46,032 bases of DNA from Nitrospirota bacterium (lineage in GTDB: Bacteria > JACPQY01), in NCBI GenBank assembly GCA_016190245.1, contig JACPQY010000001.1:1-46032 (forward strand), in the 5' to 3' direction. A model generated the notes under the pieces. That model was not told where the DNA came from. It did no database searches and worked only from the letters and a program-made list of their open reading frames with translations. Every line of letters begins with the position of its first letter. Within the stretch, counting starts at the first letter, position 1. Positions 12,874 through 46,032 of this stretch are shown here, piece by piece. The position numbers and the translations under genes are program-made.

Positions 12874-15800
12874 TCAGTAGCGATCGAGCGAGAAATGGAA
12901 TGTCTCATAGTTCGAGCTCGCCACTGTGTCCGCGTGAATCTCGAAGTTCGAAGGTTGGGACCACCCCGTTCCGGTCCAGAGCTTGCAACGCATATCGTCG
13001 TCCGTCCCCCCGCCGGGGGCGGAGACGCCGCAGAGAATCATCAGGTTGTCATTGAGGCTGGACGCCAGTTTGATGGCTGTCACATTGTTCTGCCAGTTGT
13101 CGCCGCCCACGTCCGCGGCGTTGGCGGCGAGGTCTGTCGTGGACCAGGAGGCTTCGCCGCCACAGCAGGTGTACGTGGCGAATTTCACGGTTGTGGAACC
13201 CGCGTCCACGTAGGCGAAAAGGGCCTGCCCGTTGTCCCGGCCCCAGGCCACATCGATCGTGGAACTGGGGATGGTCGCGCTGGGCCGCGTGATCGAGGTG
13301 TCGCGAGCGGGTGGGGGAGGCGTGGTCTCGAAGGCGTTTCCGTTCCAGATTCCGTCGAAAAGCTCGCCCGCGGAATCGCGCACCGCCAGAGCGATCGCAT
13401 TTGAGGTGTTCCGGGGGTCCGAAGCCATGCGCAGGACCTCGGCGCAGCCGGTGGGGGTGTAGGGAGTGTTTGGGGCGAGGGGTGTCCAGGAACTGCCCGT
13501 TCCGGGGTAGGTCCAGCACTGCATGACGGGGGTCGCGGCATACGCGCCGGAGCATCCGAGCCCCTCCCCTGATTGGGTCTCCCAAGCAAAGCCGAAGCCT
13601 TCGAGATTTTGGCCGGCGGCGTTGGCGGGGTCTGAGGTGCAGCCGGTGTTCGTCAGCTCCGCGGCGGTTTCGAAGGTATTGGTCACCCCGTTCCAGCGGG
13701 CGGCGCCCACCTTCTGGGCACCTTGGTCTCCCACGTCCGTGGCGATGAGCAGGATGCTGTCGGAAGGTGCAGCTTTGGACACAAGCCTCACCCAGAGGGC
13801 CGTTGTGGCCGCGGAGAAGAAGGAGAAGGTCACGGGACCGCTCAGGGTTCGGGTCGAATCGTCCCACCGATGACTGCGAAGCAGAGTATCCGCGGCGACC
13901 TGGTTCTCATAGACGATCAGGGCGTCGCCGGATGCGGCCTCGAAGGCGATATCGAACCCCCTGTAGTCGTCGTTGGCCGGTGAGTTCACGCAGGTCGTGC
14001 AGGAGGCGGGAAACTGGCCGTTGCAGTTCGTGCCTCCCCCCGTGTTCCATCCGTTGGCATCGGCATCGTAGCACTGGAGCATGAATTCACCATTGGCCGC
14101 GAGGATGCCCAGGAGCTTCATGTTGCGGGTGGGTGACTGGCGGAGGACGATGAACTGCATGCCGGCCCCTGGAGCCGAGGGTAGATTATCGGCGGTGGAG
14201 CCGAACTCCACGCCACTCCACGTTTTGGACTTCGGGAGCCCAAAGCCTTCGATGGTGTAGACGATCTGGCCGGTGGCCCGGGTGGCATCGCGCTTTTCCT
14301 CGGTGTTCTGGTCCGTGTTGCCCAACGGGTCTCGCGAACGGGCTCGGAAGAAGTAACGTGTCCCCATGGTGAGGCTTGTCACGCCGTACGATGTCGCGCC
14401 AGCGGAGCTCGTGTACGTTGTTGTGAAGGTGGCGCAGGCGCCGGCCGTCGTGGCCTGGCAGATCTCGTACACGAGTTGACTGGAGGCGGAGACGGCGTCC
14501 GTGGCGGCCGGCCACGTCAGGCTGATCTGACTCGCCGAGGCGGCCGTGGCGGATCCGAGGCCGGCAAAGGTGGGGGCGTTCGCGTCAACCTGCCAGGTGT
14601 GGAGCGCAGGCGTGGAGTCGGCGTTGCCCGCGGCGTCCAGGGCGCGCACCTGGAAGGTGTGGAGGGTATCGGTGAGCGAAGTGTAATTCTTGGGGCTCGT
14701 ACATGAAGCAAAGGCCGAAGCGTCGAGGGTGCACTCGAAAAGTGGTGTGGCGTCGGAGGAGGAGAAAGAGAAGGTGGCGATCGAGGAGGGCGATGGGTTG
14801 TTGGGTGTCGAGGTCAGCGTGGTTTGGGGGGGTGTGGAATCGATGGTCCAGGAGCGGGAGGCCGTTGAGACGTTGCCGGCCGCGTCCGTGGCCATAGCCT
14901 GGAACGTGTGGACTCCGTCCACGAGCGCGGTGTACGCGGCGGGTGAGGTACACGCTTCGTAGAAGCCGGTGTCGAGCCGGCACTGGAGCATGGCCTGGCT
15001 GTCGTCGGCAGAGAACGAGAACGTGGCCGAGGTCACGCGCGAGGGATCGGCGGGCATGCTCTGGAAAGCTATGACGGGAGGCGTGGTGTCCAGAGTCCAG
15101 GAGTGCGTGGCGGGAGAGGGATCCACGTTGCCCGAGGGGTCCACCGCTCGCACGGAGAAAGTGTGGCTTCCGTCAGTGAGCAGAGAGACCGTGAACGGCG
15201 AACTGCACGAGGAGAAGTCCGAAGCGTCGAGAGAGCACTGGAAAACGGAGGATGCATCCGGGCTGGAGAAGCTGAGCGTTCGGTTGGTCTGACTGCTCAC
15301 GGTTGATTGCTCACTGCTCACGAGGGCGGTATCCGGCGGGGTTCGATCACAGTCGAGCGGGCAGGCGGTTTCGTCCTCGCCGAAGCTGCACGCGCCATCG
15401 CCACAAGTCGGGGCGGGCAGGACCGTGAGCGCGGCCGTCGCCGGGGTCGGATCCCGGTTGCCCCAGAGGTCCACCGCCGCGACGGAGAGGCTGTAGCTCC
15501 CGGACGCGCTGATTCGGACCGTCCATGGCGAGGTGCATTTCACCGCGGGACCGGAGCCCGAAGGACCTGACACTGCGCAGCGGAATTCGCAGGAGGGTTC
15601 GTTGCACGACAGGGAGAGGGCGAAGGGTTGTCCCGCGAGGATCTGGCCGTTCGGCGGGTCGATCGAGGTCTCTGGGGGAGTGATGTCCATTCCGAGATCG
15701 GCGACAACCTGATCGAGATCACCGACGATTTGCTCCGGCGCGATGTCGACTCCCGCAGCCTCTATCTCCTCGCCCAGGAGAGATACGAAGGCCGTTTTGA

Positions 15801-16608
15801 ACTCGGCGACCAGGATGGGTAGTGCAGCCTCGGCCTCGGCAGCGGATGGATAGACGTCGGGATCGAGAATAGCCTGTGCGGCCTCGGCGGGCTTCCCGAG
15901 CGCAATCAGGATGGCTGTTTCCACGAGGTTCGAACGGCCGTCCAGGTCGGAGTCCACTTGGTCCACCGAGTTTTCCTGAAGCCCGGTGAGCCGTGGCGGC
16001 TGGGGGGCGCCTGCGGGATCCTCGTACTCGAACGTGAGGGCCGCGGAAAGCGAAAGGAGAGGGAGGTCTGACGGCACGGATTCGGATGCGGCCACGGAGA
16101 GCGTCACACTGATCTCGTTCGCCCCCGGGCGGATGCTCTCCGCCGGCACCTGGGCGGTCAGCCGAAGGAAGATGCACTCATGCGGCGAGTCTCGGGCGCA
16201 CTCCGCGCCGTTTGTGTTGCGGCGAGGTGGGGCCCCGGGCAGCGCCTGGGGCTCGATCAGGCCCGTCTTGGCGTGCACCTCGACGGTCTGCCGGGACAGA
16301 TGTTCCGAATTCCATTCGATGTCGGCCCCGACCTGCGTCTTCTTTGATAGCACGCCGATCTGTGCGAGAGCGATCGCTTCCTGCGGCTCGAGTTGAACGG
16401 AGATGGCCAAGTGCGTCCGAGTGTCGTCCGGAGACGAGGAATCGGGTCCCAGCCGCTCGACAAGAAGTCTCCCGCCCTGGAGGGAGTCCACCACCGCCCC
16501 CTCAGGCGCAGCGGAGGCTCTCGATTTCCCCCGGTTGCAACCCCCAGCCAGGACTGCGACCACGGCACCACAACCGAGGGCGGACACCCAAGCAGCCCAC
16601 CGGATCAG
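12874..16608 (-). CDS. Large exported Ig-like/FN3 lipoprotein, apparent CTG start
   Basis: 1244 aa if started at the CTG at 16608. No ATG or GTG starts a sensible signal here, but AAGGAGGG lies 7-8 bases upstream of CTG, and the peptide then reads MIRWAAWVSALGCG...LAGGC, a good lipoprotein signal. A TTG at 16665 lacks a ribosome site. About residues 150-250 carry an unknown beta domain. CGDGACSFGEDETAC...C is a myxobacterial-type Cys module. Three or four Ig-like repeats with two Cys and 'HTFxVRAxDxxGN' follow, then an FN3-like module (LVYEICQATTAGAC), then about 400 residues of a propeller-like region with Cys pairs. Likely surface-anchored adhesion or sensing protein. Upstream of and co-oriented with the kinase. 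Confidence 0.78.
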   Translation of the reverse strand: MIRWAAWVSALGCGAVVAVLAGGCNRGKSRASAAPEGAVVDSLQGGRLLVERLGPDSSSPDDTRTHLAISVQLEPQEAIALAQIGVLSKKTQVGADIEWNSEHLSRQTVEVHAKTGLIEPQALPGAPPRRNTNGAECARDSPHECIFLRLTAQVPAESIRPGANEISVTLSVAASESVPSDLPLLSLSAALTFEYEDPAGAPQPPRLTGLQENSVDQVDSDLDGRSNLVETAILIALGKPAEAAQAILDPDVYPSAAEAEAALPILVAEFKTAFVSLLGEEIEAAGVDIAPEQIVGDLDQVVADLGMDITPPETSIDPPNGQILAGQPFALSLSCNEPSCEFRCAVSGPSGSGPAVKCTSPWTVRISASGSYSLSVAAVDLWGNRDPTPATAALTVLPAPTCGDGACSFGEDETACPLDCDRTPPDTALVSSEQSTVSSQTNRTLSFSSPDASSVFQCSLDASDFSSCSSPFTVSLLTDGSHTFSVRAVDPSGNVDPSPATHSWTLDTTPPVIAFQSMPADPSRVTSATFSFSADDSQAMLQCRLDTGFYEACTSPAAYTALVDGVHTFQAMATDAAGNVSTASRSWTIDSTPPQTTLTSTPNNPSPSSIATFSFSSSDATPLFECTLDASAFASCTSPKNYTSLTDTLHTFQVRALDAAGNADSTPALHTWQVDANAPTFAGLGSATAASASQISLTWPAATDAVSASSQLVYEICQATTAGACATFTTTYTSSAGATSYGVTSLTMGTRYFFRARSRDPLGNTDQNTEEKRDATRATGQIVYTIEGFGLPKSKTWSGVEFGSTADNLPSAPGAGMQFIVLRQSPTRNMKLLGILAANGEFMLQCYDADANGWNTGGGTNCNGQFPASCTTCVNSPANDDYRGFDIAFEAASGDALIVYENQVAADTLLRSHRWDDSTRTLSGPVTFSFFSAATTALWVRLVSKAAPSDSILLIATDVGDQGAQKVGAARWNGVTNTFETAAELTNTGCTSDPANAAGQNLEGFGFAWETQSGEGLGCSGAYAATPVMQCWTYPGTGSSWTPLAPNTPYTPTGCAEVLRMASDPRNTSNAIALAVRDSAGELFDGIWNGNAFETTPPPPARDTSITRPSATIPSSTIDVAWGRDNGQALFAYVDAGSTTVKFATYTCCGGEASWSTTDLAANAADVGGDNWQNNVTAIKLASSLNDNLMILCGVSAPGGGTDDDMRCKLWTGTGWSQPSNFEIHADTVASSNYETFHFSLDRY

Positions 16609-16630
16609 ACTCGGTCCCTCCTTACGAGAT

Positions 16631-16644
16631 CTACCGTACGGTAG
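16631..16644. promoter_or_regulatory. Perfect 14-base palindrome upstream of the Ig-like lipoprotein
   Basis: CTACCGTACGGTAG is a perfect palindrome, ending 10 bases before the AAGGAGGG ribosome site of the gene starting at 16608. It lies between that gene and the divergent antitoxin gene. Its place fits an operator or an early mRNA stem. No regulator can be named. Confidence 0.4.
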
Positions 16645-16696
16645 TCTAGGCTTGAGGGGATGCAAGGTCAAGGGTGGCACTCTCCCCGGAATTGCA

Positions 16697-16725
16697 TTGA
16701 CAGGGATAGGTATGTTGAGTAGCAT
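16697..16725 (+). promoter_or_regulatory. Probable sigma-70-like promoter of the MazEF-type pair
   Basis: TTGACA at 16697-16702, a 17-base spacer, and TAGCAT at 16720-16725 (4 of 6 matches to TATAAT). The antitoxin ATG is at 16762. The -35 is a full consensus match in an otherwise GC-rich sequence, and the surrounding 80 bases are AT-rich. Confidence 0.5.
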
Positions 16726-16727
16726 CA

Positions 16728-16745
16728 CTATGGTCATAGCTATGA
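16728..16745. promoter_or_regulatory. Overlapping palindromes, candidate antitoxin operator
   Basis: TCATAGCTATGA (16734-16745) is a perfect 12-base palindrome, and CTATGGTCATAG (16728-16739) overlaps it with only its central pair unmatched. Both sit between the -10 and the ribosome site of the antitoxin gene, the usual place for autorepression by a ribbon-helix-helix antitoxin. Confidence 0.45.
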
Positions 16746-16761
16746 TGAGAGGGGACGAGCG

Positions 16762-16995
16762 ATGAAGACGGTACAGATGACGTTGGATGAAGACTTGGTC
16801 TCTCAGGTGGATCGAGCGGCCGGCCGCTTGGGGACGACGCGCTCGGCCTTTGCGCGGAGGGCTCTGCGGGAAGCCTTGGAGAAACTTCGCTCCCTTGAGC
16901 TGGAGCGGAAGCACCGGGACGGATACGCCCGCAAACGCGCGCAAAGCGGCGAGTTCTCCGTTTGGGAGACGGAACAGGTCTGGGGCGACGAGTGA
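16762..16995 (+). CDS. Ribbon-helix-helix antitoxin of a MazEF-type pair
   Basis: 77 aa. MKTVQMTLDEDLVSQVDRAA is the beta strand and first helix of a CopG/MetJ-type ribbon-helix-helix DNA-binding domain, followed by LGTTRSAFARRALREAL, the second helix. The acidic tail (SVWETEQVWGDE) is the expected toxin-binding segment. It would neutralise the MazF-like toxin and repress the pair from the palindromes at 16728-16745. Stop overlaps the toxin start in GTGA (16992-16995). Confidence 0.87.
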   Translation: MKTVQMTLDEDLVSQVDRAAGRLGTTRSAFARRALREALEKLRSLELERKHRDGYARKRAQSGEFSVWETEQVWGDE

Positions 16996-23566: not shown

Positions 23567-25798
23567 CTACGCGCGCGAGGCGCGCTTCGCGATCCAGACC
23601 TCTCCGACGGCGGCGACGAGGGCCCACAGGAGCGAGAAGGCGTAGGCCCGCTTGGTCGGTTTCTCTTTGAGCATCAGGTGGTACCAGGCGGAGATCGAGC
23701 ATTTGCCCTCGGTCTCTCCCCGGTGGCCGTCCCAGGTCATGAACGAGACTGGGATGTGGGCGCCGCCGGGGAAGGGGAGATCCTCCTCGTCCTCGACCAC
23801 GAGTCTCCGCGTGAAGAACGCCTTGTAGCGACCGTTCAGGTAGGAGACGCTTCCATTCACGTCCTGCTGTGATTGGGCCTTCCATGCCCCCACGCCGTTG
23901 GCATTGTGTTGCTGGATCGCCTTGGAATCGCTGTCCCAGGTCCAGAGGTTAACGGCCTTCAGCGGATCACCCATGACGAAATGTGGTTTTTCCATGCCCT
24001 TGAGCGGTTGTGCCGGAAACTGGACGGCGATCCGATCCGCGAAGGTTCCTTTCTCCGTATCGGTCACGCTTGAGCTGTTGTCATGCCACTCGACGAGGAG
24101 GGCCAGGGACTGACCATCGTGGAGGGTCTTGACGAATACGATATCGTTGGCCGGGGTGAAGTTCCGGGGGGGGATCACGATTTGACCCAGGAGAGGGAGG
24201 CGGGCATAGGCGATCTTGTCCCACTGCGGATCATCCACACCGGTTGGAAGGCTCTGCGAGAATTCGGCGAGGAGAAGGGTGGCCGGTTTGCTCTTTGGTT
24301 CCATGGAGAACCCGCGGATATAGTGGACGATGTCCCAGAGGTCGTCGGGTTTTTCGAGGGATTCGCCGAAGGCGGGCATGGGCGTGCCTTGGATGCCTGC
24401 GAAGAGAGCACGGAAGATCGCCTTGGGCTCAGTGCCTCGCCTGAAGTTCCACGGCTTGGACAGATTGCCGGGGAAGATCCTGTTTCCCCAGTCGTCCTTG
24501 AGCTCGTGGGCGGAGGGACCGTCCGCGAGGCCCTCCTGACCGTGGCACTTGAAGCACTCGACACCATCGAAGAACTCCTTGCCGCGTGCGCGACTCTCGG
24601 GGGTGTCCGGCGGCTCGGGGGGCTCGGGGATGCTCTTGGGCGGCTCCGGTCCGAATCGGGGCGAGAATGCCTTGACGTAGCCGACGAGGTCCCGGATCCG
24701 CGCGTCCGTGAGTTCGCCTTTCCAAGGGGGCATGGTCGTGCCCGGCAGCCCCAACGCAATGGCACGGTGGAGATCCTCGTCGGCCGGCACGGCACCTTCC
24801 ACGGTGCTTCGGATTTTGTAGATGCCGCGTGTGAAGTCCCGGGGTTTCGTGAACATGAAATCGTGTGCGGGCCCGTTGCCGTCGCCCTTTTCCCCGTGGC
24901 AGCCGGAACACTTTTCGAGATAGAGGCGTTCGGTGCCGGATCGGTCAGAATTCTTTGCAGGTTCGGCCGAGGCTTCCGCGTGGGCGGACGTCGTGGCGAG
25001 GAGCCGGCTGTACCGTGGGGCCGGCCCGGAAGGGGCCGTGGCGTGTTCCTCTCCCCACGTCCGAGGCTCGAACCCCGTGGCTTCGTAGATGTAGAGGATC
25101 ACCTTCCAGATCTCCTCTTCGGACAGGGTGTCTTCCCAGGCCGGCATGGCCGAGTTCCACGGCGTGGCGCCGTTCGGAAGGCCGCGCCAGCCGAGCGCCA
25201 CACGCCAGAAAACGAACGATTCCTGGAGCTGCGCGATCGTTCCCGGATCGCGGAAATTGGCCGGGATCGGATTCAGAGCCGGGGCAAAAGGCCCCTTGCC
25301 GTTGAGATTGTCGCCGTGACAGTAGTAGCAATTTTGGTAGTAGATCTTCATGCCTTCGGCGACGTGCTTTTCCCTGTTCCCCTTGTCGCTTCGGTAGGGA
25401 TTGGTGGCGCCCTGGACGTGGTATGGCCTTCCCTTGAACTGGATGTCCAGGGGAGGCTCGGGATGGACCGTGCGGGCCTCGGCCGGAGGCGTGTACTGCG
25501 GCGTCATCTTCTGGAACGCCAGGTATCCGACGCAGAGAGGGATCGCGACGAAGGCCGCCAAACGGACCACCTTGAGCGATCCGGTTCGTCCCGCCAACGT
25601 GTCGAGGATGGGTTTCGAGAATCGGCGGAAGCGGTCCTCGTCCGTGGACAGGTAAAGAAGGATGGCGATGAGCAGGAGGCCTGAGTACATCGCCATGACG
25701 AAGCTCGGAATGGGGGGATGGACGAGCTTGAGGGCACCGTAGATCGCGCCGAAGATGAGAACGGCGTGCAGAAGGGGGGAACGAAGAACGCCCATCAT
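23567..25798 (-). CDS. Triheme c-type cytochrome with ethylbenzene-dehydrogenase-like haem b domain, membrane-bound
   Basis: 743 aa from the ATG at 25798, overlapping the upstream stop as ATGA; longer readings have no signal. N-terminus has about three membrane segments. Three CxxCH sites follow: CYYCH 157-161, CSGCH 297-301, CFKCH 415-419, each in a separate cytochrome-c domain. Residues about 490-715 look like the EB_dh haem-binding domain (as in the gamma subunit of ethylbenzene dehydrogenase, which binds haem b by Met and Lys): HFVMGD, VNLWTWD, FFTRRL, FMTWDGHRGETEGK. A final membrane helix ends the protein. Outward-facing electron carrier, likely transferring from the bd-like subunit. 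Third gene of its operon. Confidence 0.84.
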   Translation of the reverse strand: MMGVLRSPLLHAVLIFGAIYGALKLVHPPIPSFVMAMYSGLLLIAILLYLSTDEDRFRRFSKPILDTLAGRTGSLKVVRLAAFVAIPLCVGYLAFQKMTPQYTPPAEARTVHPEPPLDIQFKGRPYHVQGATNPYRSDKGNREKHVAEGMKIYYQNCYYCHGDNLNGKGPFAPALNPIPANFRDPGTIAQLQESFVFWRVALGWRGLPNGATPWNSAMPAWEDTLSEEEIWKVILYIYEATGFEPRTWGEEHATAPSGPAPRYSRLLATTSAHAEASAEPAKNSDRSGTERLYLEKCSGCHGEKGDGNGPAHDFMFTKPRDFTRGIYKIRSTVEGAVPADEDLHRAIALGLPGTTMPPWKGELTDARIRDLVGYVKAFSPRFGPEPPKSIPEPPEPPDTPESRARGKEFFDGVECFKCHGQEGLADGPSAHELKDDWGNRIFPGNLSKPWNFRRGTEPKAIFRALFAGIQGTPMPAFGESLEKPDDLWDIVHYIRGFSMEPKSKPATLLLAEFSQSLPTGVDDPQWDKIAYARLPLLGQIVIPPRNFTPANDIVFVKTLHDGQSLALLVEWHDNSSSVTDTEKGTFADRIAVQFPAQPLKGMEKPHFVMGDPLKAVNLWTWDSDSKAIQQHNANGVGAWKAQSQQDVNGSVSYLNGRYKAFFTRRLVVEDEEDLPFPGGAHIPVSFMTWDGHRGETEGKCSISAWYHLMLKEKPTKRAYAFSLLWALVAAVGEVWIAKRASRA

Positions 25799-26598
25799 CT
25801 CAGTGAAGAGAGGTAGGCCACGACGTCGTTCAGTTCCTCGGGGGTCAGGAGGGACGCGAAAATGGGGGGCATCACGCCGGGCGGATAGCCCTCGGTCACG
25901 TCGGCATTGGGATCCAGGATGGACTTGCGGATGAAGTCCGCATCGCGTCTCGAACCGACCTTGCTGAGGTCCGGTCCCACGATGGCTTGGGGATTGGGGT
26001 TGTGGGGGGTGATGTGGCAGGCCATGCACGTCCCCTTGCCCAGGAAGATTTCCCTGCCGCGGTCAGCGGGACTGAGCGAGGCCATGTCCACGGCAGGTTT
26101 CGGGGCCTCTCGGGCCGCGGCGCGCAGGAGTTCTTTCAGGCGATCCAGTTCGCACGTCGGGGATCCGCCCAGACTTAGGAGATAGTCCACCACGGCCGAC
26201 ACCTCGAATTCGTTCAAGTCCGCCGGGGGCTTGTTGGCGGGAGGCATGATCGGGGGGTAGCCTTCGACCACGAAGGCCTGAGGCTGCGTCATCGACTGAT
26301 AGATGTACTCGGGGGCCGTCAGGCCCGGCCGGCGCTTGGCGGCGCGCGCGCCCACGCCTGAGAACGCGGGGCCGCGCGCTTTCGGATCCGGTTCGATGCT
26401 GTGGCAAACCAGGCACTGGCCCTTCGAGGTCAGCGTCTTCCTGCCGGCCTCGACGACTTGGGCGCACGTGAGCGTTTCGGGGTCCAGCTTGATCTCCTCC
26501 GGCGGGAGCGACTCGCTCTGGGGGATCTTGGTGACGAACCAGGCATAGAAGAAGGTCACCGCGGCAACAAAGAGGACCAATCGGCCGATGACCTGCAT
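25795..26598 (-). CDS. Membrane-anchored diheme cytochrome c
   Basis: 267 aa. One N-terminal anchor (VLFVAAVTFFYAWFV), then two class-I cytochrome-c domains: CLVCH at 62-66, with a distal Met likely in GYPPIMPPANK, and CMACH at 191-195, with GYPPGVMPPIF. The two halves are similar in plan, so it probably arose by duplication. Carries electrons in the periplasm between partners encoded on either side. Starts 6 bases after the bd-like gene stop and overlaps the next start as ATGA. Confidence 0.9.
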   Translation of the reverse strand: MQVIGRLVLFVAAVTFFYAWFVTKIPQSESLPPEEIKLDPETLTCAQVVEAGRKTLTSKGQCLVCHSIEPDPKARGPAFSGVGARAAKRRPGLTAPEYIYQSMTQPQAFVVEGYPPIMPPANKPPADLNEFEVSAVVDYLLSLGGSPTCELDRLKELLRAAAREAPKPAVDMASLSPADRGREIFLGKGTCMACHITPHNPNPQAIVGPDLSKVGSRRDADFIRKSILDPNADVTEGYPPGVMPPIFASLLTPEELNDVVAYLSSLR

Positions 26599-26604
26599 GG
26601 CAAC

Positions 26605-28386
26605 CTACAGCGAGATCTCGACCTTCTTTTCGATCTTCTGGCCCAGATAGAAGACGAGACAGATGAAAAGGAAAAAGATGAGAACGGCCGACGAGACGAT
26701 CATGCCCGAGACGCCGTGGGCCGGAAGGTAGGCGCCGCTCGATGTGTCCTTCACCACGCCGTAGACATGCCAGAATTGCCTGACGCCGGATCGGATATAG
26801 CCCATGAGGCCCATGAGCCAGATGAAAGACACCGCGAGGAAGAGGAGTGTGTACTGCGAACGGGCCGGCATGCGGCCCCAGCGGATGGGGCCGACCACTT
26901 TCGCCCCCCTGTAGAGCAGAACGTCGAGCAGCGTTCCGAAAATCAGGACGCACGCGACGGCGCCCACTTGGTACACGGAGTACCCGATCCTCACGATGGC
27001 GGGGACGAAATAGCCCTTCACGCCGAGGTAGATCACATACACCGCGGCGCCGGCGACCAGCGACCACAGGACGCCGTTGCCCACCGATTTCCACGAGGCG
27101 GTGCATTCCTTGTTGGCGCGGCGGTAGAACAGGAAGCTGAGGTAGGTGGTCAGGATCATCAGGTTCACGGCCGTGTTCTTCGCGGACATGACGCCGAGGA
27201 CGCCGAGCACCGGGTGGTGGGTGCCGCCGATGGCGCGGGCCTCCTCGAGCGAAGCCACAAGCGAGTGGGGGGTCAGCCAGACGGCGTAGCAGAGGATGAG
27301 AACCACAAGCAGGGGGGGAATGGCTTTCCGGTAGCGTTGTGCGCCCTCAATCTTCCCCATCGAGAGCCAGAGGTAGTAGTTGAGGCCCGTGAAGAGGGCC
27401 CCGATCAGTGCGGCCTGAACGATCCAGAGCCAGGAGAAAGCGCCTCCCATCATCGAAACTCCCATCTGCTCCGAGTAGGCGTAGATTTCACGGCCCAGGT
27501 AGTAGCCCATGAAGGGCAGGGGAATGAGCGCCGAGATCATGATGAAATTGCCGATGTAGCCCATCCAGTCGAAGTAGGCGCGCTCCTTGTCGGTCTTGGC
27601 GGAAAGAAAGCGGAAGGCCGCGTAGGCCGAGGCGACGGCGCCGCCGAACGCCACGTTGGCCACGAGCCTGTGTAAGTTGAGCGGCATCCAGGAATAGGTG
27701 TGGATCACCTTCCAGAGGCTCTCGCGGACGCCCGCGTCGCTCACACCCTGGGGCGTCATCATGAAAGCCGCCCACGCGTTCGTCAGAAAGACGATGCTCG
27801 TGCCGACCAGGTTGAGGAGCACGCCCATGAGGATGTGTGCCCCCTTTCGCCTGGCCATCCGGTCCCACATCAGGAAGTACACCTCTACGAGGATGACTTC
27901 GGCGAAGAGGAGGCCGACATAGAGATACCAGGTCGGCATGAAGATGCCTCGCATGTAGGAGAACAGCTTGGGATAGAAAACGGCGAAGACGATCAGCATG
28001 GCGCCGCCTGTGAGAGAGGTGATGGCGCCGGCCACGGCGACAAGCTTTGTGAAGTCCCAAGCGAGGAGGTCGTATTTCGCCTCCTTCGTGCGCCATCCGA
28101 TGACTTCCACGATCACGGCGAAGATCGGCGCGCCCAGCATGAAGGCGCCGAGCATGAGGTGGAGTTGGGCCACGAGCCAGATGACAATGCGCGCCCCGCC
28201 GCGGCCGAACTCCCGGTAGGTCGCATCGGGGAGGGTCTGGTTCAGAAGGTAGACGGCGAGCATGCTCACCGTGAGGATGGCGAGTGTCTTGAAGATTCCC
28301 TTGAACACACCCGCTCCCACGCCGTGAGGGGCGTGCGCTTCGGTGCGGTCTAGGGCCCGCAGGAGTCCTGATCCCGGGTAGCGCAT
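26605..28386 (-). CDS. Cytochrome bd-superfamily subunit I-like protein without the quinol loop
   Basis: 593 aa, about 14 predicted membrane segments. The N-terminal half matches CydA in plan: His76 (AQLHLMLGAFMLG) in the place of the haem ligand His19 and His239 (LNLHRLVANVAFGG) in that of His186; NAWAAFMMTPQGV (about 203-215) resembles the NSWMQxPxG segment. Three things depart from CydA. The Q-loop GRQPW is absent. The third helix reads TSLTGGAMLIVFAVF with no Glu where CydA has Glu99. About five extra membrane segments follow. There is no CydB in the window. This fits the branches of the bd superfamily tied to cytochromes c rather than quinol. First gene of an operon with the diheme and triheme cytochromes. 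Confidence 0.78.
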   Translation of the reverse strand: MRYPGSGLLRALDRTEAHAPHGVGAGVFKGIFKTLAILTVSMLAVYLLNQTLPDATYREFGRGGARIVIWLVAQLHLMLGAFMLGAPIFAVIVEVIGWRTKEAKYDLLAWDFTKLVAVAGAITSLTGGAMLIVFAVFYPKLFSYMRGIFMPTWYLYVGLLFAEVILVEVYFLMWDRMARRKGAHILMGVLLNLVGTSIVFLTNAWAAFMMTPQGVSDAGVRESLWKVIHTYSWMPLNLHRLVANVAFGGAVASAYAAFRFLSAKTDKERAYFDWMGYIGNFIMISALIPLPFMGYYLGREIYAYSEQMGVSMMGGAFSWLWIVQAALIGALFTGLNYYLWLSMGKIEGAQRYRKAIPPLLVVLILCYAVWLTPHSLVASLEEARAIGGTHHPVLGVLGVMSAKNTAVNLMILTTYLSFLFYRRANKECTASWKSVGNGVLWSLVAGAAVYVIYLGVKGYFVPAIVRIGYSVYQVGAVACVLIFGTLLDVLLYRGAKVVGPIRWGRMPARSQYTLLFLAVSFIWLMGLMGYIRSGVRQFWHVYGVVKDTSSGAYLPAHGVSGMIVSSAVLIFFLFICLVFYLGQKIEKKVEISL

Positions 28387-28476: not shown

Positions 28477-29127
28477 GTGCCCCGGTTAGATCGCGCCGCC
28501 GCCGTCGAGGCCGCAGCCCACCATCTGAGCCGCCGCCGGTTTCTACTCTCGGGTGCCGTCTTGGCCGCTGCGGGGGCGATCCCCTTGCGCTGTGCGAGGG
28601 CGCCGAAGGATCTTCGCGTGCCGGCAGGCTTCACCCTCAAGGTTCTTTCGGCGTGGGAGTACGCCCTTCTCATTGCGCTGGCGCGACGGATGCTCGGCCC
28701 CCGGGCGGCCCAACTCATTGATCGGCGGACGGTGGACCCCGCGGCGTATCTCGACGAGACGCTGTCGCTTGTTCACCCGGAGCTGCACAAGCCTCTCCAT
28801 CAGGCTTTCGCGATCCTCGAATTCTCGCCGTGGCCGATCCTGCCGAAGTGGGAGCGGTTCACGAGGAGTTCCACCCACGTGCAGGATCGTGTGATCCAGT
28901 CGCTGGAAGGCTCCCGGTCGGAGGCGAAAAACGCGATCTACGTGGCGTGCAAGCTCCTGACAGGCCCTTCGTTTTATGCTCAGCCCCCGTCCTGGGTACT
29001 GCCCGGCTACGAGGGACCGCCCTGGCAGGCGCCGGAGCTTCAACGACAGGCCACGATGTATCCCGACACGTGGCCGCCACCCAGGGAGCCGGTAGTCCAC
29101 CCCGGGACGGAGAGCCGAGAGCCGTGA
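28477..29127 (+). CDS. Tat-exported small subunit of a GMC-type dehydrogenase (gluconate 2-dehydrogenase subunit 3-like)
   Basis: 216 aa, GTG start. Twin-arginine signal SRRRFLLSG (18-26) and a hydrophobic run. The rest resembles gluconate 2-dehydrogenase subunit 3-type chaperone subunits: 'WEYALLIALARRMLG', then DPAAYLDETLSLVHPELH. In known enzymes this subunit carries the folded FAD subunit through the Tat path. The GMC gene overlaps its stop as GTGA, confirming the pairing. It is divergent from the cytochrome operon, 90 bases away, whose diheme cytochrome could act as the usual third subunit. Confidence 0.76.
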   Translation: MPRLDRAAAVEAAAHHLSRRRFLLSGAVLAAAGAIPLRCARAPKDLRVPAGFTLKVLSAWEYALLIALARRMLGPRAAQLIDRRTVDPAAYLDETLSLVHPELHKPLHQAFAILEFSPWPILPKWERFTRSSTHVQDRVIQSLEGSRSEAKNAIYVACKLLTGPSFYAQPPSWVLPGYEGPPWQAPELQRQATMYPDTWPPPREPVVHPGTESREP

Positions 29128-30656
29128 TCATCGAGGCGAAGGATCTCCACGGCGATCTGGATGTGACGGCGGACGCCGTTGTGGTGGGCACGGGTGCCGG
29201 CGGCGCGCCCGCGGCTGCGGTTCTGGCCGAGACGGGCATGAACGTGGTGGTCCTCGAAAAAGGCGGCTACTACCAGGCGGGCGAATTCACGGGAGACCAG
29301 ACGACGATGTTGCGGCGTCTCTGGGTGAATGGGGGATTCCTGGCGACGAAAGATGGGGCCATCACGCTGCTGCAGGGTCAATGCGTGGGGGGCTCCACCG
29401 TCATCAACATGTGCCTCTCGTGGAAGCCGCCTGCCGAAGCGTTCGATCGCTGGCGGGAGGAGACCGGTGTTGAGGGGCTCACGCAGGAGTCGCTCCGGCC
29501 CCACGTGGACGAGGTGTGGCGGACGGTGAACGCCGAACCGGCGCAGCGCACGCACATCAACCGGAACAACTACGTCTTCGAGATGGGGGCGAACGCGCTC
29601 GGTTGGGACGTGGTACCCATGGCGCGAAACGTACGCGAGTGCCAGAATCTCGGGCTCTGCCTCTTCGGCTGCCCGGTGAATGCGAAGCAAAGCATGCTTC
29701 TCACGTATGTGCCCCGGGCGGACCAAGCGGGGGCGAGGATCTATGCCGGCGCCACGGTGCGTCGCGTGCTCGTCGAGGGCGGCCGCGCGGTTGGCGTGGA
29801 AGGGGAGCTCGTGGGCCGCGATGGCCGAACCTCGCTCGGCAAGCTTCGCGTCCGTGCCCCCATCGTGTGTCTGGCGGCCGGCGTCCTCGAGACGCCCGGC
29901 ATCCTGCTGCGCAGCGGGCTCAGGGGTCGGGGCGAAACGGCCGGTCGGTTCTTCCAGATCCACACGCACACGTTCGCGTACGGTTTCATGCCGGAGCCCA
30001 TCTACATGGAATACGGCGCGCCGCAGAGCATCGCGATCATGCAATTCGCGGACGTGCTCGGTCGCAAGGGACCGGGCTTCATCATTGAGGGTCTGGGCGT
30101 GCACACCGTCAACTGGTCCATGCTCGTGCAGGGGTTCGGGCAGCCGTACGAGGCGCAGGTGGAGAAGTATCGGCACGCGGCGATGGCCGATGCCATTCTG
30201 CGCGATCGCTCGCGGGGTCATGTGGAGTTGACCGACGGCGGGCAGGCCGTGGCGGTGTACGACTACACGCCGGAGGATCGTGCCCTGATCAAGGAGTCCA
30301 TGCGGCGCATCGCGGAGTGTCTCCTCGCGGCGGGCGCGAAGGAAGTTGTCATCCCGGGCTCGCGGTTCGGGCCGATCTCGAAGCGAGAGGAACTCGATGC
30401 CGCGGCGGAGGGCATCCATCCCGCGAAGGCTCTCCAAGCGCTCGCCTCGGCCCACCTGTTCTCGTCCGCCCGGATGGCCGGGAGTCCCGAAAAGGGCTTC
30501 TGCGACTCCCGTGGGGAGGCGTGGGACACCAAGGGGCTCTATGTCGTGGACGCCTCCGCACTGCCGGGGAACCTCGGCGTGAACCCGCAGATCACGATCA
30601 TGGCCGTGGCGAGGAAGATCGCGAGCGGGATCGTCGCCGAGCGGAAGGGCGGGTAA
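29124..30656 (+). CDS. GMC-family FAD-dependent oxidoreductase
   Basis: 510 aa from the GTG at 29124 (GTGA overlap with the small subunit). FAD-binding Rossmann motif VVVGTGAGGAPAAAVLAE (20-37) and Glu45. 'GGSTVINMCLSWKPP' is the FAD-contacting loop, NVRECQNLGLCLFGCPVNAK a Cys cluster of the type seen in long-chain alcohol and sugar oxidases of this group. C-terminal SAHLFSSARMAGSP and LPGNLGVNPQITIMAVA hold the catalytic His/Asn pair. Oxidises an alcohol group on an unknown substrate. It has no signal itself and is likely exported with its Tat partner; electrons probably go to cytochrome c. Confidence 0.88.
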   Translation: MIIEAKDLHGDLDVTADAVVVGTGAGGAPAAAVLAETGMNVVVLEKGGYYQAGEFTGDQTTMLRRLWVNGGFLATKDGAITLLQGQCVGGSTVINMCLSWKPPAEAFDRWREETGVEGLTQESLRPHVDEVWRTVNAEPAQRTHINRNNYVFEMGANALGWDVVPMARNVRECQNLGLCLFGCPVNAKQSMLLTYVPRADQAGARIYAGATVRRVLVEGGRAVGVEGELVGRDGRTSLGKLRVRAPIVCLAAGVLETPGILLRSGLRGRGETAGRFFQIHTHTFAYGFMPEPIYMEYGAPQSIAIMQFADVLGRKGPGFIIEGLGVHTVNWSMLVQGFGQPYEAQVEKYRHAAMADAILRDRSRGHVELTDGGQAVAVYDYTPEDRALIKESMRRIAECLLAAGAKEVVIPGSRFGPISKREELDAAAEGIHPAKALQALASAHLFSSARMAGSPEKGFCDSRGEAWDTKGLYVVDASALPGNLGVNPQITIMAVARKIASGIVAERKGG

Positions 30657-40877: not shown

Positions 40878-43800
40878 CTACGGGATGGGAGGGGCGTAGA
40901 CTTCGTTGGTGGCGAGGTCGCCGGATCCGCTGTTGCCGCCGATGACGAAGATCTTTCCGTACACTTCGGCGGCTCCCGCCATGTACCGCGCGGTAGGCCC
41001 GCTGGTCTTGGTCATCCAGGTGTTCGTGGATACGGTGTACTCTTGGGTGGTGGCTATGGTGCCCCCGTTCCAGCCCCCCACGAGGTAGACCCGTTCGTTC
41101 GAGACTGCGGTGCCGGGGAAGGTGGTCGCGGTCGGCATCGTCGCCCCGGGGTTCCAGGTGTCGAAGGGCGGGTCATAAATCTCAACGGAGGCCAAATACG
41201 AGCCGTTGTAGCCGCCGAAGACGAAGATCCTGCCATTGACGCCTGCCGCCACGTGGTCTCGTCTTAGAGTGCCCATCCCCGTCTTGGTCGCCCAAGTGTC
41301 CTGATACGGATTGTATTCCTCGACGGTGGTGAGCGTCGTGTCCGAGTTGTTGACGCCCCCGGTGACGTAGATCCGGCCGTTGATCGCGGCCGCGGCCACG
41401 CGATCCCGCGGGGTGGGCATGACGGCCTTGGTAGTCCATGTGTCGGTGGTGGGGGCGTATTCTTCGTTCACGTCGAGCCGCGGCGAACAGCCTCCGACAT
41501 TGCAGCCGCCGATGGAGTAGATCCTGCCGTTCACGTAGGCGGAGGCAAACTGCACGCGAGCGGTGGGCATCGGCGTCTTCGTGCTCCACGAGTTCGTCAC
41601 GGCGTCGTACTCCTCGTTCGTGCCCAGGAAGTTGCTGCCGTTCATTCCGCCGATGGCATAGAGCCTGCCGAAAGCCTCCGTCACCGTCACGCCGCTTCTG
41701 GCGGTGAGCATGTCGGTTTTGGAGGCCCAGGCGTCCACGGGGACGGCGGGGGGGGGTGGGGTGTATTCCTCGTTCGTCGCGAGGAAGCTCCCGTTGGCGC
41801 CCCCGATCGCGTAGATTTTCCCGTTCGTGGCCGCCACAGCCAAGCTTTGTCTCGCCGCGCTCATCGCCATCCTTGTGGACCACGTGTTCGCCGCCGGATC
41901 GTATTCCTCATTCGTTGCGAGGGCGCTCCCGTTGGATCCACCGATGACGCAAATCCTGCCGTTCACCCCCGCCGCGCCGAGGTACTCACGTGCCGTTGGC
42001 ATGGGAGCCTTGCTGGCCCACGAGTTTGCCACGGGGTTGTATTCCTCGTTCGTCTGGGCGTAGCTGCCGGACTCTCCGCCTACTGCGTAGACCCTGCCGT
42101 TCACGGCCGCCGCTGCGAGATAGCCCCTTGCCGTGAGCATGTCCGCCTTGGCTGTCCAGGTATTCGCCACGGGGTCGTATTCCTCGTTCGTGGCCAGGTA
42201 GCCCGGGTTCATTCCGCCGATGGCGTAGATCTTGCCGTTCACGGCCGCCGCTGCGAGCAGATCCCTTGCCGTGAGCATGTCCGCCTTGGCGGTCCAGGTA
42301 TTCGCCACGGGGTCGTATTCCTCGTTCGTGGCGAGCTTACTCCCGTTGAATCCCCCTATGGCGTGGATCTTCCCGTTGACGGCGGCTGCCGCGAGACGGT
42401 ACCTTGCCGTGAGCATGCCGGCTTTTGAGGCCCACGAATTCGTCACGGGGTCGTATTCCTCGTTCGTCGAAAGGGGGCTGCCGTTTGTTCCACCGATGGC
42501 ATAGACTCGACCATTCACGATGGCGGCCGCCAGGTTGGCCCTTGCCGTGGTCATCGCCGCCTTGGAGACCCACACGTTTCCGCCCGCCACGTCGGCCTTC
42601 TCGACGGTGTTGCCGTCCGTGAGCCCCGCCTGGTCCTGGGCGCGGACGACGAAGTAGTAGGTGGTGTTCTTGGTGAGTGGGGCGGTGGCGTAGCTCGTCA
42701 CACCGGCGCTTGTCGTGTACGTCGCCGTGAACGATCCCTGGCACGTCGCCGGGCTTGTGGCCTGGCAGATCTGATAGACGAGGTTGGAGGGGCTGGTCAC
42801 GTTGTCGGACCCCGCCGACCACGAGATCGTGATGGGCAGGCCACCCGCCTCGGCCTTCAATGCGCCGCCGAACGTGGGCGGGGTATTATCGAAGGTGAAG
42901 GAGGCATTCGCCGTCGGGCTCTGCCAGTTGCCCGCGTTGTCGGTGGCCTTGGACTCGATGAGGTAGCCCGCGCCGCTTGTCCACGTCACGGCGCTCGAGT
43001 CGTAGCTCCACGAAGTCGTCCCGGTCGCGAGCAGCCACGACATGCTGCCGGACCACGTGGAACCGGTCCAGTAGAAGAAATCCGCGTTCCTCTTGATCGA
43101 GACCTCGACCTTCTGGAGCCCGCTGCCCGCGTCCGCCCCCGTGCCGCCGATCGAAGTGAGCGAGGTCAGGTAGGCCCCGTTGCTCGGGACGGAGATGTTC
43201 GATGCCGGCATGTCCGTGTCCACGGTGACCCCGTCTGTGTAGGCGAAGTTGGAGGTGTTGCCTGCGTTGTCAATCGCCCGAGCGCAGTTGTAGTAGGTGT
43301 TCCCGGAGCTGAGCGAGAGGCCAAAGCTGTTCTTGCCCGTGGTGAGCCCCACGTTCACCGTGGCCACGATGTCGCCCGTGCAGGAGGTGTTCGAACTCAG
43401 GTTGTAGTCGTAGGACGCGATGCCGCTGCCGCCGCCATCACCGAATCCGCTCCAGTTGGCGTCCATCGTCGAGGAGGAATTCCAGTAGTCCACGTCCGCC
43501 CCCGTGCCGTCGTTGATCGTCCCGAGCGAGGGCGGCGAGGCGTCGTAGATGTAGTTGAGGCCGGAGGAAGGATTGGACAGGTTCTGGGCGGCGTCCCGCG
43601 CCTTGGCCGTGAGGACGTTCAGGCTGTCCGCCGTCACGGAGGTGGTCACGGCGAAGCTCCAGTTGCCGCCACCGTCGGCCGGTCCCGATCCGATGGGGGA
43701 GCCGTCATCGTAGGCGAGGACCGTGGAGTTCGGCTCAGCCGTGCCCGACACGGTAGGCAGGCCGTTGTTGGCCGGGCTGGTCGGGATGGTGGAAATGATG

Positions 43801-46032
43801 CTGGGGGGCGAGGGGGGGGTGATGTCGTTGGTCTTGATCGTGGGTGAGCTCTGGTTGCCCGCGGCGTCGGTGGCCGTGATGTAGATCTGGTTCGATCCGT
43901 CGGCCTGGTTGTCGCCGATGTTGAAGACCGGGAAGCTGCCATCGCCCATCGCCGAGGTCTGGCCGACGAGGTTGGTGAGGAGGCCGTCGGAGTAGACTTT
44001 CACGGTGGCGCTGGGCTCGACGGCGCCGGATGCGCCGGTGAGCTGGTCCGGAGTGCCCGGCGCGTTCATCGTGACGGTCAGGAAGGAGGGGTTGGGCTGA
44101 GAGGGGGGGGAGTTGTCGAACAGGAAGGAGACGTTGGACGATGGACTCTGCTCATTGGAGGCGGTGTCGGTCGCCCGCGCGGAGATCGTGTAGTTGTTGC
44201 CGGAGGTCCAGGAGACGCCCGAGGAGTTGTAGGACCACGAGGAGGTTCCCGTGGCGTTGAGCCAGGTTTGGGTGGCCACCCAGGTGTAACCGACGTCTTC
44301 CCAGTAGTAGAGATCGGCGACACGCTGGATTGTGATCCTCACGAGGCTGAGGCCGCTGCCGGAGGCGTCCGAGGCGGAGCCCCAGATCGAGGTGAGGGAT
44401 GAGAGGGTCGCGCCGTTGCTCGGGCTCGATATCGCGCTGTTCGGGAGTTGCTTGTCGATCCGGACGGGGTCGGAGCAGGTGACGGCCTCTGAGTTGCCGG
44501 CGACGTCGGTGGACTTGTAGCAGACGGCTTTCTGGCAGACGCTGAAGCTCGGGCAGGTGACGTTGGCGAGGGCGCCGGGGGTGGCCGGGGTGCAGGATCC
44601 GAATATCTTGCGAACGCGGTGGTTGTTTCCCTCACCATAGTAGATGGCGCCGTCCGGAGCGATGCCGATACTATTGCCGTCTGAGCTGTCGTTGGAAGTG
44701 TGGTTGATTTGGGCGCTTGTGGCCGGCCCACCGTCACCGGAGAAGCCGTACGCGCCGGTACCGGCCAGCGTGGTGATCGTCCCGCCTGGCGTCACATTCC
44801 AGACTCTTGCATTGGCGGTGACGATGACGTTGTCCGCACCGTTCACGGCCACACCGTTTGTGGTGGACAAGTTCTGGCTGGTGGCTGCGCATGGAACGGT
44901 ACACCCCGCGCCTCCACCCGCGAAGGTCGTGATCGTGCCTGCAGTGTCGAGCTTTCGCACGCGGGCATTCGCTCGATCCGCGATGTACACGTTGCCCAGC
45001 GAATCCACGGTAACTCCCGTCGGTGTGTACAGACTTGCACTGGTGCCCGCGCCGCCATCGCCCGCGAAGGTGCCCGTTCCGTTGCCGGCGATCGTGTAGA
45101 TATTTCCGATTGTCATCGCTTGCCCGTAGAAGGTGCCGCTCGCGCCGGCGACCATGCGAATGCGGTGGTGCTCGCCTTGGGCGATGTAGATATGGTTCGA
45201 AGAATCCACCCAGAGACCGCCCGAAAACCCGATCCCCGCCGCGGTGGCGGCTCCCCCGTCGCCCGAAAAACCGCCTGTGCTCCCGGCCTCGTTCGTAATG
45301 ATACCCCCGGTGACTTTCTTCACGCGGCTCACGCCGGCGTAGTTAACCAGGATGTAGAAATCCCCGCTCGGTTTGGCGTACACCCCTTGAATTTGGCCCA
45401 GAGTGGCGCTGGTGGCGGGGCCGCCGTCGCCCGCATTACCCGAACTGCCGTTGCCGGCTACGGTGGTGATGATCCCGTTCGTGTCGATTTTCCGGACCCG
45501 ATAGTTGTACTTATCAGCCACGTACACATTGCCCGCAGCATCCACGCTTGCGCCATTCACGTAGTTGACTTGAGCACTAAGCGCAGGTCCGCCGTCGCCC
45601 GTGCCGCCCGCCGTACCTGTCCCGGCGGCAGTCGCGATGTACCCCGGCTGGCCGTCCTGAACGCAGTAGTTGGTGGTCGAGACGCCCGATCCGGAGCCGT
45701 CGGTGGGCGTGAGGTTCACGTTCGTGTCGGCATTCAACCAGGTGCTGGGCCCGTCGTCGGTCGTTGTCGGGGGCTGCTTGTCAATCCGGACGAGGCCGGA
45801 CTGGACGGATTGGACGTTGCCCACGTTGTCGGTGGATTGGTAGCGGACGTATTGGTTGCAGACCGTGCCCGGGGAGCAGGTCACGCTGATGAGCGAGCTG
45901 TAGGGCGTGAGCGGTGAGCAGGTGTCGGAAGTGTCCACGCAATAGTTCGTGCTTGCGATGCCGGAGCCGGCGTCGGACTCGGTGAGGGCTACGCTCACGT
46001 TGTTCGCCTGCCACGAGGGGGGCGCATCGTCC
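40878..46032 (-). CDS. Giant secreted Ig-like/NHL/FN3/Kelch protein, 5' end outside the window
   Basis: At least 1717 residues; the frame is still open at 46032 and reads DDAPPSWQANN...ALTESDAGSG, matching an internal repeat, so the gene continues. In order from the window edge: Cys-rich Ig-like repeats (TNYCV...C...VCxxxxxYxSTDxxGN...RIDKQ), an NHL propeller of six blades (nt about 45640-44600) inside one such repeat, further Ig-like repeats ('SPSNGATLSSLTSIWG', 'FDNTPP'), an FN3-like module (LVYQICQATSPATC) and twelve Kelch repeats ('ATNEEYDPVANTW'), probably two six-bladed propellers, to the end. No anchor is visible at the C-terminus. Likely extracellular, surface or adhesion role; not proven. 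Confidence 0.88.
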   Translation of the reverse strand, partial: DDAPPSWQANNVSVALTESDAGSGIASTNYCVDTSDTCSPLTPYSSLISVTCSPGTVCNQYVRYQSTDNVGNVQSVQSGLVRIDKQPPTTTDDGPSTWLNADTNVNLTPTDGSGSGVSTTNYCVQDGQPGYIATAAGTGTAGGTGDGGPALSAQVNYVNGASVDAAGNVYVADKYNYRVRKIDTNGIITTVAGNGSSGNAGDGGPATSATLGQIQGVYAKPSGDFYILVNYAGVSRVKKVTGGIITNEAGSTGGFSGDGGAATAAGIGFSGGLWVDSSNHIYIAQGEHHRIRMVAGASGTFYGQAMTIGNIYTIAGNGTGTFAGDGGAGTSASLYTPTGVTVDSLGNVYIADRANARVRKLDTAGTITTFAGGGAGCTVPCAATSQNLSTTNGVAVNGADNVIVTANARVWNVTPGGTITTLAGTGAYGFSGDGGPATSAQINHTSNDSSDGNSIGIAPDGAIYYGEGNNHRVRKIFGSCTPATPGALANVTCPSFSVCQKAVCYKSTDVAGNSEAVTCSDPVRIDKQLPNSAISSPSNGATLSSLTSIWGSASDASGSGLSLVRITIQRVADLYYWEDVGYTWVATQTWLNATGTSSWSYNSSGVSWTSGNNYTISARATDTASNEQSPSSNVSFLFDNSPPSQPNPSFLTVTMNAPGTPDQLTGASGAVEPSATVKVYSDGLLTNLVGQTSAMGDGSFPVFNIGDNQADGSNQIYITATDAAGNQSSPTIKTNDITPPSPPSIISTIPTSPANNGLPTVSGTAEPNSTVLAYDDGSPIGSGPADGGGNWSFAVTTSVTADSLNVLTAKARDAAQNLSNPSSGLNYIYDASPPSLGTINDGTGADVDYWNSSSTMDANWSGFGDGGGSGIASYDYNLSSNTSCTGDIVATVNVGLTTGKNSFGLSLSSGNTYYNCARAIDNAGNTSNFAYTDGVTVDTDMPASNISVPSNGAYLTSLTSIGGTGADAGSGLQKVEVSIKRNADFFYWTGSTWSGSMSWLLATGTTSWSYDSSAVTWTSGAGYLIESKATDNAGNWQSPTANASFTFDNTPPTFGGALKAEAGGLPITISWSAGSDNVTSPSNLVYQICQATSPATCQGSFTATYTTSAGVTSYATAPLTKNTTYYFVVRAQDQAGLTDGNTVEKADVAGGNVWVSKAAMTTARANLAAAIVNGRVYAIGGTNGSPLSTNEEYDPVTNSWASKAGMLTARYRLAAAAVNGKIHAIGGFNGSKLATNEEYDPVANTWTAKADMLTARDLLAAAAVNGKIYAIGGMNPGYLATNEEYDPVANTWTAKADMLTARGYLAAAAVNGRVYAVGGESGSYAQTNEEYNPVANSWASKAPMPTAREYLGAAGVNGRICVIGGSNGSALATNEEYDPAANTWSTRMAMSAARQSLAVAATNGKIYAIGGANGSFLATNEEYTPPPPAVPVDAWASKTDMLTARSGVTVTEAFGRLYAIGGMNGSNFLGTNEEYDAVTNSWSTKTPMPTARVQFASAYVNGRIYSIGGCNVGGCSPRLDVNEEYAPTTDTWTTKAVMPTPRDRVAAAAINGRIYVTGGVNNSDTTLTTVEEYNPYQDTWATKTGMGTLRRDHVAAGVNGRIFVFGGYNGSYLASVEIYDPPFDTWNPGATMPTATTFPGTAVSNERVYLVGGWNGGTIATTQEYTVSTNTWMTKTSGPTARYMAGAAEVYGKIFVIGGNSGSGDLATNEVYAPPIP
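42095..42370 (-). repeat. Two nearly identical 138-base Kelch units
   Basis: Units 42095-42232 and 42233-42370 are spaced exactly 138 bases (46 codons). Over their first 100 or so bases they differ at only a handful of positions, far less than other Kelch units in the gene, so a recent tandem duplication is likely. They code for repeats 3 and 4 of twelve. Confidence 0.8.

Follow-up and report, generated by a model that had tools for sequence, protein, structure and literature searches.

A CydA-like protein without a quinol site in a conserved operon with c-type and EB_dh-type cytochromes, and its link to PCP_red genes

What does a relative of the cytochrome bd subunit CydA do when its quinol site and its CydB partner are missing and its gene is followed by those of multihaem cytochromes? 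The question is raised by three minus-strand genes at positions 23567-28386 of contig JACPQY010000001.1 (assembly GCA_016190245.1, a Nitrospirota bacterium), of which positions 1 to 46,032, hereafter the window, were analysed. An earlier sequence-only reading had recognized these genes, described a bd-oxidase-like subunit followed by cytochromes, and considered a new electron-transfer assembly; the three genes, their positions and their strand were confirmed. By sequence, the operon joins a CydA-fold protein to cytochromes with sites for five c-type haems in total and with an EB_dh domain. Its function is most likely cytochrome-c-driven O2 reduction by a complex of the OR-N type, an assignment that we favor with modest confidence.

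The CydA-like gene (26605-28386, minus strand) encodes a 593-aa protein with about 14 predicted membrane helices, in keeping with the extra helices noticed earlier. The Pfam family PF01654 (Cyt_bd_oxida_I) spans residues 65-588 (E 4.3e-15; score 55.7 bits, cut-off 26.2), and an AlphaFold2 (AF2) model matched ten solved CydA chains in the PDB with Z 28-31 and a root-mean-square deviation of 3.5-3.9 A over about 350 residues. These AF2 models are moderate in confidence, with a mean predicted local distance difference test score (pLDDT) of 75 for the 593-aa protein and 78 for a second model, and the second-nearest fold was ActC of alternative complex III (ACIII), at a Z of about 20. The bd superfamily has been split into the qOR, OR-C and OR-N branches, and cytochrome c is thought to feed OR-N (PMC10839748, PMC13189123). 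Profile searches found CydB (PF02322) neither in the window's genome (G000, 85% complete) nor in its sister genome (G001, 97%), extending to both genomes the missing CydB partner of the earlier description. A c haem inside the CydA-like chain sets OR-C apart from OR-N, and a motif scan found no CXXCH within the 593-aa chain. A search of a plasmid collection returned canonical CydA fragments only.

Residue positions were assigned by comparison with canonical CydA proteins, that of E. coli (L050) among them, and conservation was assessed in an alignment of 96 relatives. His76 and His239, which the sequence-only reading had picked out as haem-ligand-like, correspond to His19 and His186 of the E. 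coli protein, with no change in 96/96 relatives. The counterparts of E. coli Glu37, Glu107 and His126 are also kept (Glu94, Glu163 and His184, with Asp in place of Glu163 in one relative), as are those of Arg448 and Trp451 (Arg536 and Trp539). In cytochrome bd-I of E. coli, the haems are ligated by His19, Glu445 and His186/Met393. At the place of Glu445, the haem b595 ligand, Leu527 was found in all 96 relatives, within an invariant MGLMG, and the Glu99 place, already noted to lack Glu, was held by Tyr156 just as uniformly. In addition, the Q-loop residues Lys252 and Glu257 are replaced by Gly309 and Gly314 in the 593-aa protein. The quinol site is absent, as had been claimed, but the equation of GRQPW with the Q-loop did not stand, GRQPW being a separate C-terminal motif of which a remnant (R536-Q-F-W539) persists. 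Right after this remnant comes His540, a residue new with respect to canonical CydA and invariant among the relatives; His391, Met400, Lys403, Arg532 and Asp547 are likewise invariant or nearly so. One alignment, but not two others, places Met400 opposite Met393, a ligand of haem b558, and the match is tentative because the Q-loop region aligns unreliably. A canonical CydA with a hidden Q-loop was ruled out by the residue alignments. On these residue features, the 593-aa protein is classified as a bd-superfamily member without a quinol site, of the OR-N type. The loss of Glu445 and the invariant His540 had escaped the sequence-only reading, and so had a cassette of PCP_red genes, described below, that lies outside its coordinates.

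The CydA-like gene is followed by a gene for a diheme cytochrome c (C2; 25795-26598, minus strand) of 267 aa, with a single N-terminal membrane anchor, two CXXCH motifs and a match to PF00034 (E 1e-17). The third gene (23567-25798, minus strand) encodes a membrane triheme cytochrome c with an EB_dh domain, three CXXCH motifs and N- and C-terminal transmembrane segments. The order of these genes had been described correctly; the triheme gene as an 820-aa open reading frame (ORF) was set aside in favor of 743 aa, starting at the ATG at 25798, which is the probable start because its ATGA overlaps the stop of the diheme c gene. The intergenic gaps, +6 nt from the CydA-like to the diheme c gene and -4 nt from there to the triheme gene, are consistent with a single operon. 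No NXR (nitrite oxidoreductase) genes were found among the Pfam-scanned window proteins.

Three parts can be distinguished in the triheme protein, all on the minus strand. The N-terminal part (approximately 25064-25798), with membrane helices and one c haem, is of a type that we call MC1 and shares 41-49% identity with free MC1 proteins of L035, L037, L043, L044 and other loci. The middle part (approximately 24300-24945) would carry two c haems and is homologous to Kuenenia Kustc0457 (PDB 6h5l_B; profile E 1.2e-78, Foldseek E 1.5e-15). The EB_dh domain, of the NxrC/EbdC type (23702-24229; PF09459 at 56 bits), is followed by the C-terminal membrane helix and matched both NXR-C (7b04_C; profile E 3e-22, Foldseek E 6.5e-14) and the gamma subunit of ethylbenzene dehydrogenase (2ivf_C; profile E 8e-15, Foldseek E 1.6e-13). 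The window protein has the expected haem-b ligands, a Met (in FVMGD) and a Lys, which are missing from some relatives, and a haem b is likely in the window's EB_dh domain. By homology, the triheme protein is a fusion of the products of two genes of other genomes, MC1 and EBC (diheme c-EB_dh).

The window's phylum is represented by only two genomes in the searchable set, and the sister genome contains an 80%-identical CydA-like protein in the same operon. In a panel of 192 genomes across bacteria, the CydA-like protein or a near relative was carried by 16 genomes from 14 families, including one (G064) with a shorter relative only and no EB_dh gene. A scan of 85,000 species genomes yielded at least 574 relatives, and loci with named hosts fall in at least 15 phyla. 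Gene order was scored in the 72 neighbourhoods with over 6.5 kb of downstream sequence. In 68 of these, cydA is followed, always in this order, by genes for diheme c, membrane monoheme c and diheme c-EB_dh; MC1 and EBC are present in all 72 and C2 in 68. Gene calls in neighbour genomes followed simple ORF rules and the locus counts are non-independent samples; a chance or misassembled operon was nevertheless ruled out by an order fixed in 68-72 of 72 loci. Fusion of MC1 to EBC was restricted to the window, L031, L039, L063 and L081 (5 of about 100 loci), whereas the CydA-like protein was fused to diheme c in Scalindua (L110) and in Rhodocyclales (L053), giving proteins of 844 and 915 aa. Such fusions among the parts support one complex.

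Altogether, the sequence-only description of a bd-superfamily member without a quinol site, probably linked to cytochrome c, is supported. The fold is that of the bd superfamily, the alignments revealed no concealed Q-loop, and homologues keep their c-type and EB_dh cytochrome neighbours in a fixed order. The claim of a new assembly had to be given up, because earlier papers describe the same cluster for Nitrospira, Nitrospina and anammox bacteria (PMC6606698, PMC3578206) and because the three c domains joined to EB_dh, considered a possible novelty, are two genes, separate in most relatives and fused here. What changes is the scope, as a module known from nitrite oxidisers becomes a general respiratory module in at least 15 phyla, a spread that makes it unlikely that its function is tied to nitrite oxidation.

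The CydA-like protein's link to PCP_red genes is unexpected and new in this survey, and in the literature searched no published link of PCP_red proteins to bd-like oxidases was found. A neighbour protein of 650 aa, with the Pfam domain order Usp-Usp-PCP_red-rubredoxin-like-PCP_red, was present in 53 loci and lay on the operon's strand in 53/53. A radical SAM/SPASM protein of 420-470 aa with a C-terminal PCP_red domain, resembling AhbD and NirJ but scoring under their curated cut-offs, recurs in 32 loci; 22 loci have an Mrp-type ATPase, and 8 a small PCP_red protein. Genes for the Usp-PCP_red and radical SAM proteins follow immediately downstream of the operon in the sister genome; in the window's genome, the Usp-PCP_red and radical SAM-PCP_red genes stand side by side on another contig (C10), while contig C39 carries both the Mrp gene and the small PCP_red gene, close to each other.

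The association was also seen in the genome panel by a profile test that used neither radical SAM nor Usp domains alone, since these are common. Strong matches to the C-terminal half of the Usp-PCP_red protein occurred in 11/16 genomes with the CydA-like protein and in 0/176 others (p=1.8e-14), and PCP_red above its cut-off in 14/16 and 6/176, respectively (p=6.7e-15); these Fisher tests ignore shared ancestry, and the 16 genomes come from 14 families. Among the 40 EB_dh-positive genomes, PCP_red was present in 13/15 with the CydA-like protein and in 1/25 without it (p=1e-7), which rules out EB_dh as the driver of the link. The lone exception, G033, carries a truncated copy: its contig (C326, L239) starts inside the operon and encodes diheme c, monoheme c, EB_dh and radical SAM-PCP_red proteins, and the CydA-like gene would lie past the contig end.

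Elsewhere, PCP_red forms the C-terminal domain of subunit B of protochlorophyllide reductase, which makes tetrapyrrole handling a fair inference here; the co-occurrence points to a dedicated step that matures a tetrapyrrole or cofactor. More specifically, the complex might carry a specially made haem or other tetrapyrrole, made or inserted by the NirJ/AhbD-like radical SAM-PCP_red, Usp-PCP_red and small PCP_red proteins with the Mrp-type carrier, in a site that lacks Glu99 and Glu445 and has His540; we consider this rather unlikely as it stands. A slightly better, still minority chance is given to a cassette with another purpose, such as molybdoenzyme or Fe-S maturation, whose co-occurrence reflects a shared lifestyle, which would compete with the maturation step only and leave the complex itself untouched. 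An Mrp-type Fe-S carrier does belong to the cassette, and type II DMSO-reductase genes are found in many host genomes, including that of the window; however, PCP_red tracks the CydA-like protein among EB_dh-positive genomes, with a truncated operon as the exception, and the Usp-PCP_red gene never departs from the operon's strand in its neighbourhoods.

If the operon supports O2 reduction, periplasmic electrons would enter at the diheme c/EB_dh part and then move by way of two membrane-anchored c proteins, one monoheme and one diheme, to a low-spin haem b of the CydA-like subunit, held by His239 and perhaps Met400. A catalytic haem held by His76 would reduce O2 to water. A second catalytic haem would have to be bound otherwise than in canonical bd, perhaps by His540, because Leu and Tyr take the places of Glu445 and Glu99 and His540 is new; the NirJ/AhbD-like radical SAM and PCP_red proteins would provide a dedicated tetrapyrrole-handling step that matures one haem. 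Haem-copper oxidase genes were found in 14/16 host genomes of the CydA-like protein and in 71/176 others; they mark the aerobic life of the hosts without singling out this complex. In the near-complete genomes G006 and G154, which group with Nitrospinota in the CydA tree, profile searches found neither COX1 nor CydB, which leaves OR-N proteins as their only recognised oxidase candidates; the two genomes carry two OR-N-like types.

Several observations weigh against an oxidase. Glu99 and Glu445, part of the O2-reducing site of canonical bd, are gone, and O2 reduction could have been lost with them; no purified complex of this operon type was reported in the literature searched; one relative belongs to the anammox genus Scalindua (L110), regarded as strictly anaerobic; and most host genomes have another oxidase. 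Some of these points would also suit a membrane electron conduit between a cytochrome c or molybdoenzyme side and the quinone pool, including its variants of reversed flow from nitrite to quinone, as put forward for nitrite oxidisers and anammox bacteria (PMC3578206, PMC6606698), or of a complex-III-like quinol:cytochrome c module. The loss of both Glu residues in 96/96 relatives agrees with such a conduit, as does the resemblance of the EB_dh half to NXR-C, and caa3-type oxidase genes adjoin many loci (COX1-type in 27), a place often taken by ACIII. In Acidobacteriota, the gene lies directly behind ActA-ActB-ActE without a nearby NrfD subunit, that is, with ActC lacking, and it is because of this arrangement and the ActC-like fold match that a quinone-side role keeps some weight. 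Set against it are the loss of the known quinol-site residues and the scarcity of adjoining NXR or ActAB genes, which are missing from most loci. Additionally, a complex III-type cytochrome b is present in 12-13/16 host genomes, so that a replacement of complex III is not needed and a general role of this kind is weakened; taken jointly, the conduit and its variants seem unlikely, though worth keeping in view.

A terminal reductase for another small molecule, such as NO or peroxide, or a detoxifying oxidase would accommodate the occurrence in an anammox genus. It would also suit the EB_dh protein, whose diheme half is near Kustc0457, the partner of the HAO-like Kustc0458. Yet no NO or peroxide genes were recognised among the identified recurrent neighbours, and aerobic respiratory genes are found in most host genomes, which makes this function very improbable. 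Cytochrome-c-driven O2 reduction is retained as the preferred function, and the residue pattern, together with the near-exclusive co-occurrence of PCP_red/radical SAM genes, provides testable predictions on haem binding and on such O2 reduction.

Further observations concern the surroundings of the operon. Divergent from it in the window (28477-30656, plus strand) are genes for a small protein with a twin-arginine translocation (TAT) signal and a GMC-type FAD oxidoreductase, a pair that resembles a sugar/alcohol dehydrogenase of the periplasm lacking a cytochrome subunit of its own, also occurs in the sister genome (L031 12308-13840) and may be an electron donor to the c haems. Other possible periplasmic electron sources are two type II DMSO-reductase-like operons (alpha, beta, EB_dh gamma) on contigs C47 (L241) and C28 (L242) of the window's genome. 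Very long putative surface proteins are encoded at 12874-16944, with a bacterial Ig-like (Big_13) match, and at 40878-46031, running past the contig end. Genome G171 (1.8 Mb) has three operon copies (L045, L046, L037), the first of which adjoins genes for the beta, gamma and chaperone proteins of a type II DMSO reductase, along with one for a 16-haem cytochrome. In L072, L083, L090, L099 and L105, genes of the ActA type (5 haems), ActB type and ActE type (1 haem) lie upstream of the OR-N operon; the upstream sequence examined contains no NrfD-type ActC, and the CydA-like gene stands as if in ActC's place. An exported protein that recurs near the operon in 28 loci (e.g., L116 13039-13785, L142 8202-9002) ends in a carboxypeptidase-regulatory-like domain; another part of it, without a Pfam match, may be cupredoxin-like. 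Two other recurrent neighbours, represented by L093 14230-15024 (264 aa, 11 loci) and L056 16805-17161 (118 aa, 12 loci), had no Pfam or NCBIfam match.

Among known systems, the bd-like_3/alt_NxrC_2 cluster is directly comparable. In Nitrospira moscoviensis and Nitrospina gracilis, a conserved cluster, also present in anammox bacteria and described as of unknown function, combines a bd-like protein that lacks the Q-loop with a pair of c-type cytochromes and an alternative NxrC (PMC3578206, PMC6606698). The window operon has in common with this cluster the extra helices of the bd-like protein, the pair of c-type cytochromes, and an alternative NxrC that bears two c haems and a membrane helix; it differs in the absence of adjoining NXR genes, which are present for some described members, in the fusion of monoheme c and c-EB_dh, in a sparsely sampled host phylum and in the wide spread beyond nitrifiers found here. 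With the OR-N family of Murali et al. 2021, to the extent that it is described in papers citing it (PMC10839748, PMC12342949, PMC13189123), the window protein shares a CydA-like core, the lack of a quinol site and of CydB, and cytochrome c as proposed donor. ACIII genes are followed by OR-N5 genes in Nitrospirales (PMC12342949), and the terminal oxidase clusters TO_1 to TO_4 of Ca. Manganitrophus are related (PMC9040806), being likened by description through bd-like proteins with cytochrome partners, including a periplasmic cytochrome b in TO_1. E. coli CydAB (bd-I) has the same fold and the His19, His186, Glu107, Arg448 and Trp451 positions, whereas the window protein is without the quinol site, Glu99, Glu445 and CydB and has extra helices. 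NXR-C (7b04_C) and ethylbenzene dehydrogenase gamma (2ivf_C) share the fold of the EB_dh haem-b domain, which in the window sits behind c-type haem domains, is membrane anchored and has no molybdoenzyme partner in the operon. Lastly, Kustc0457 shares the two c-haem domains, and there they belong to a stand-alone protein with the HAO-like partner Kustc0458, whereas here they are fused to EB_dh.

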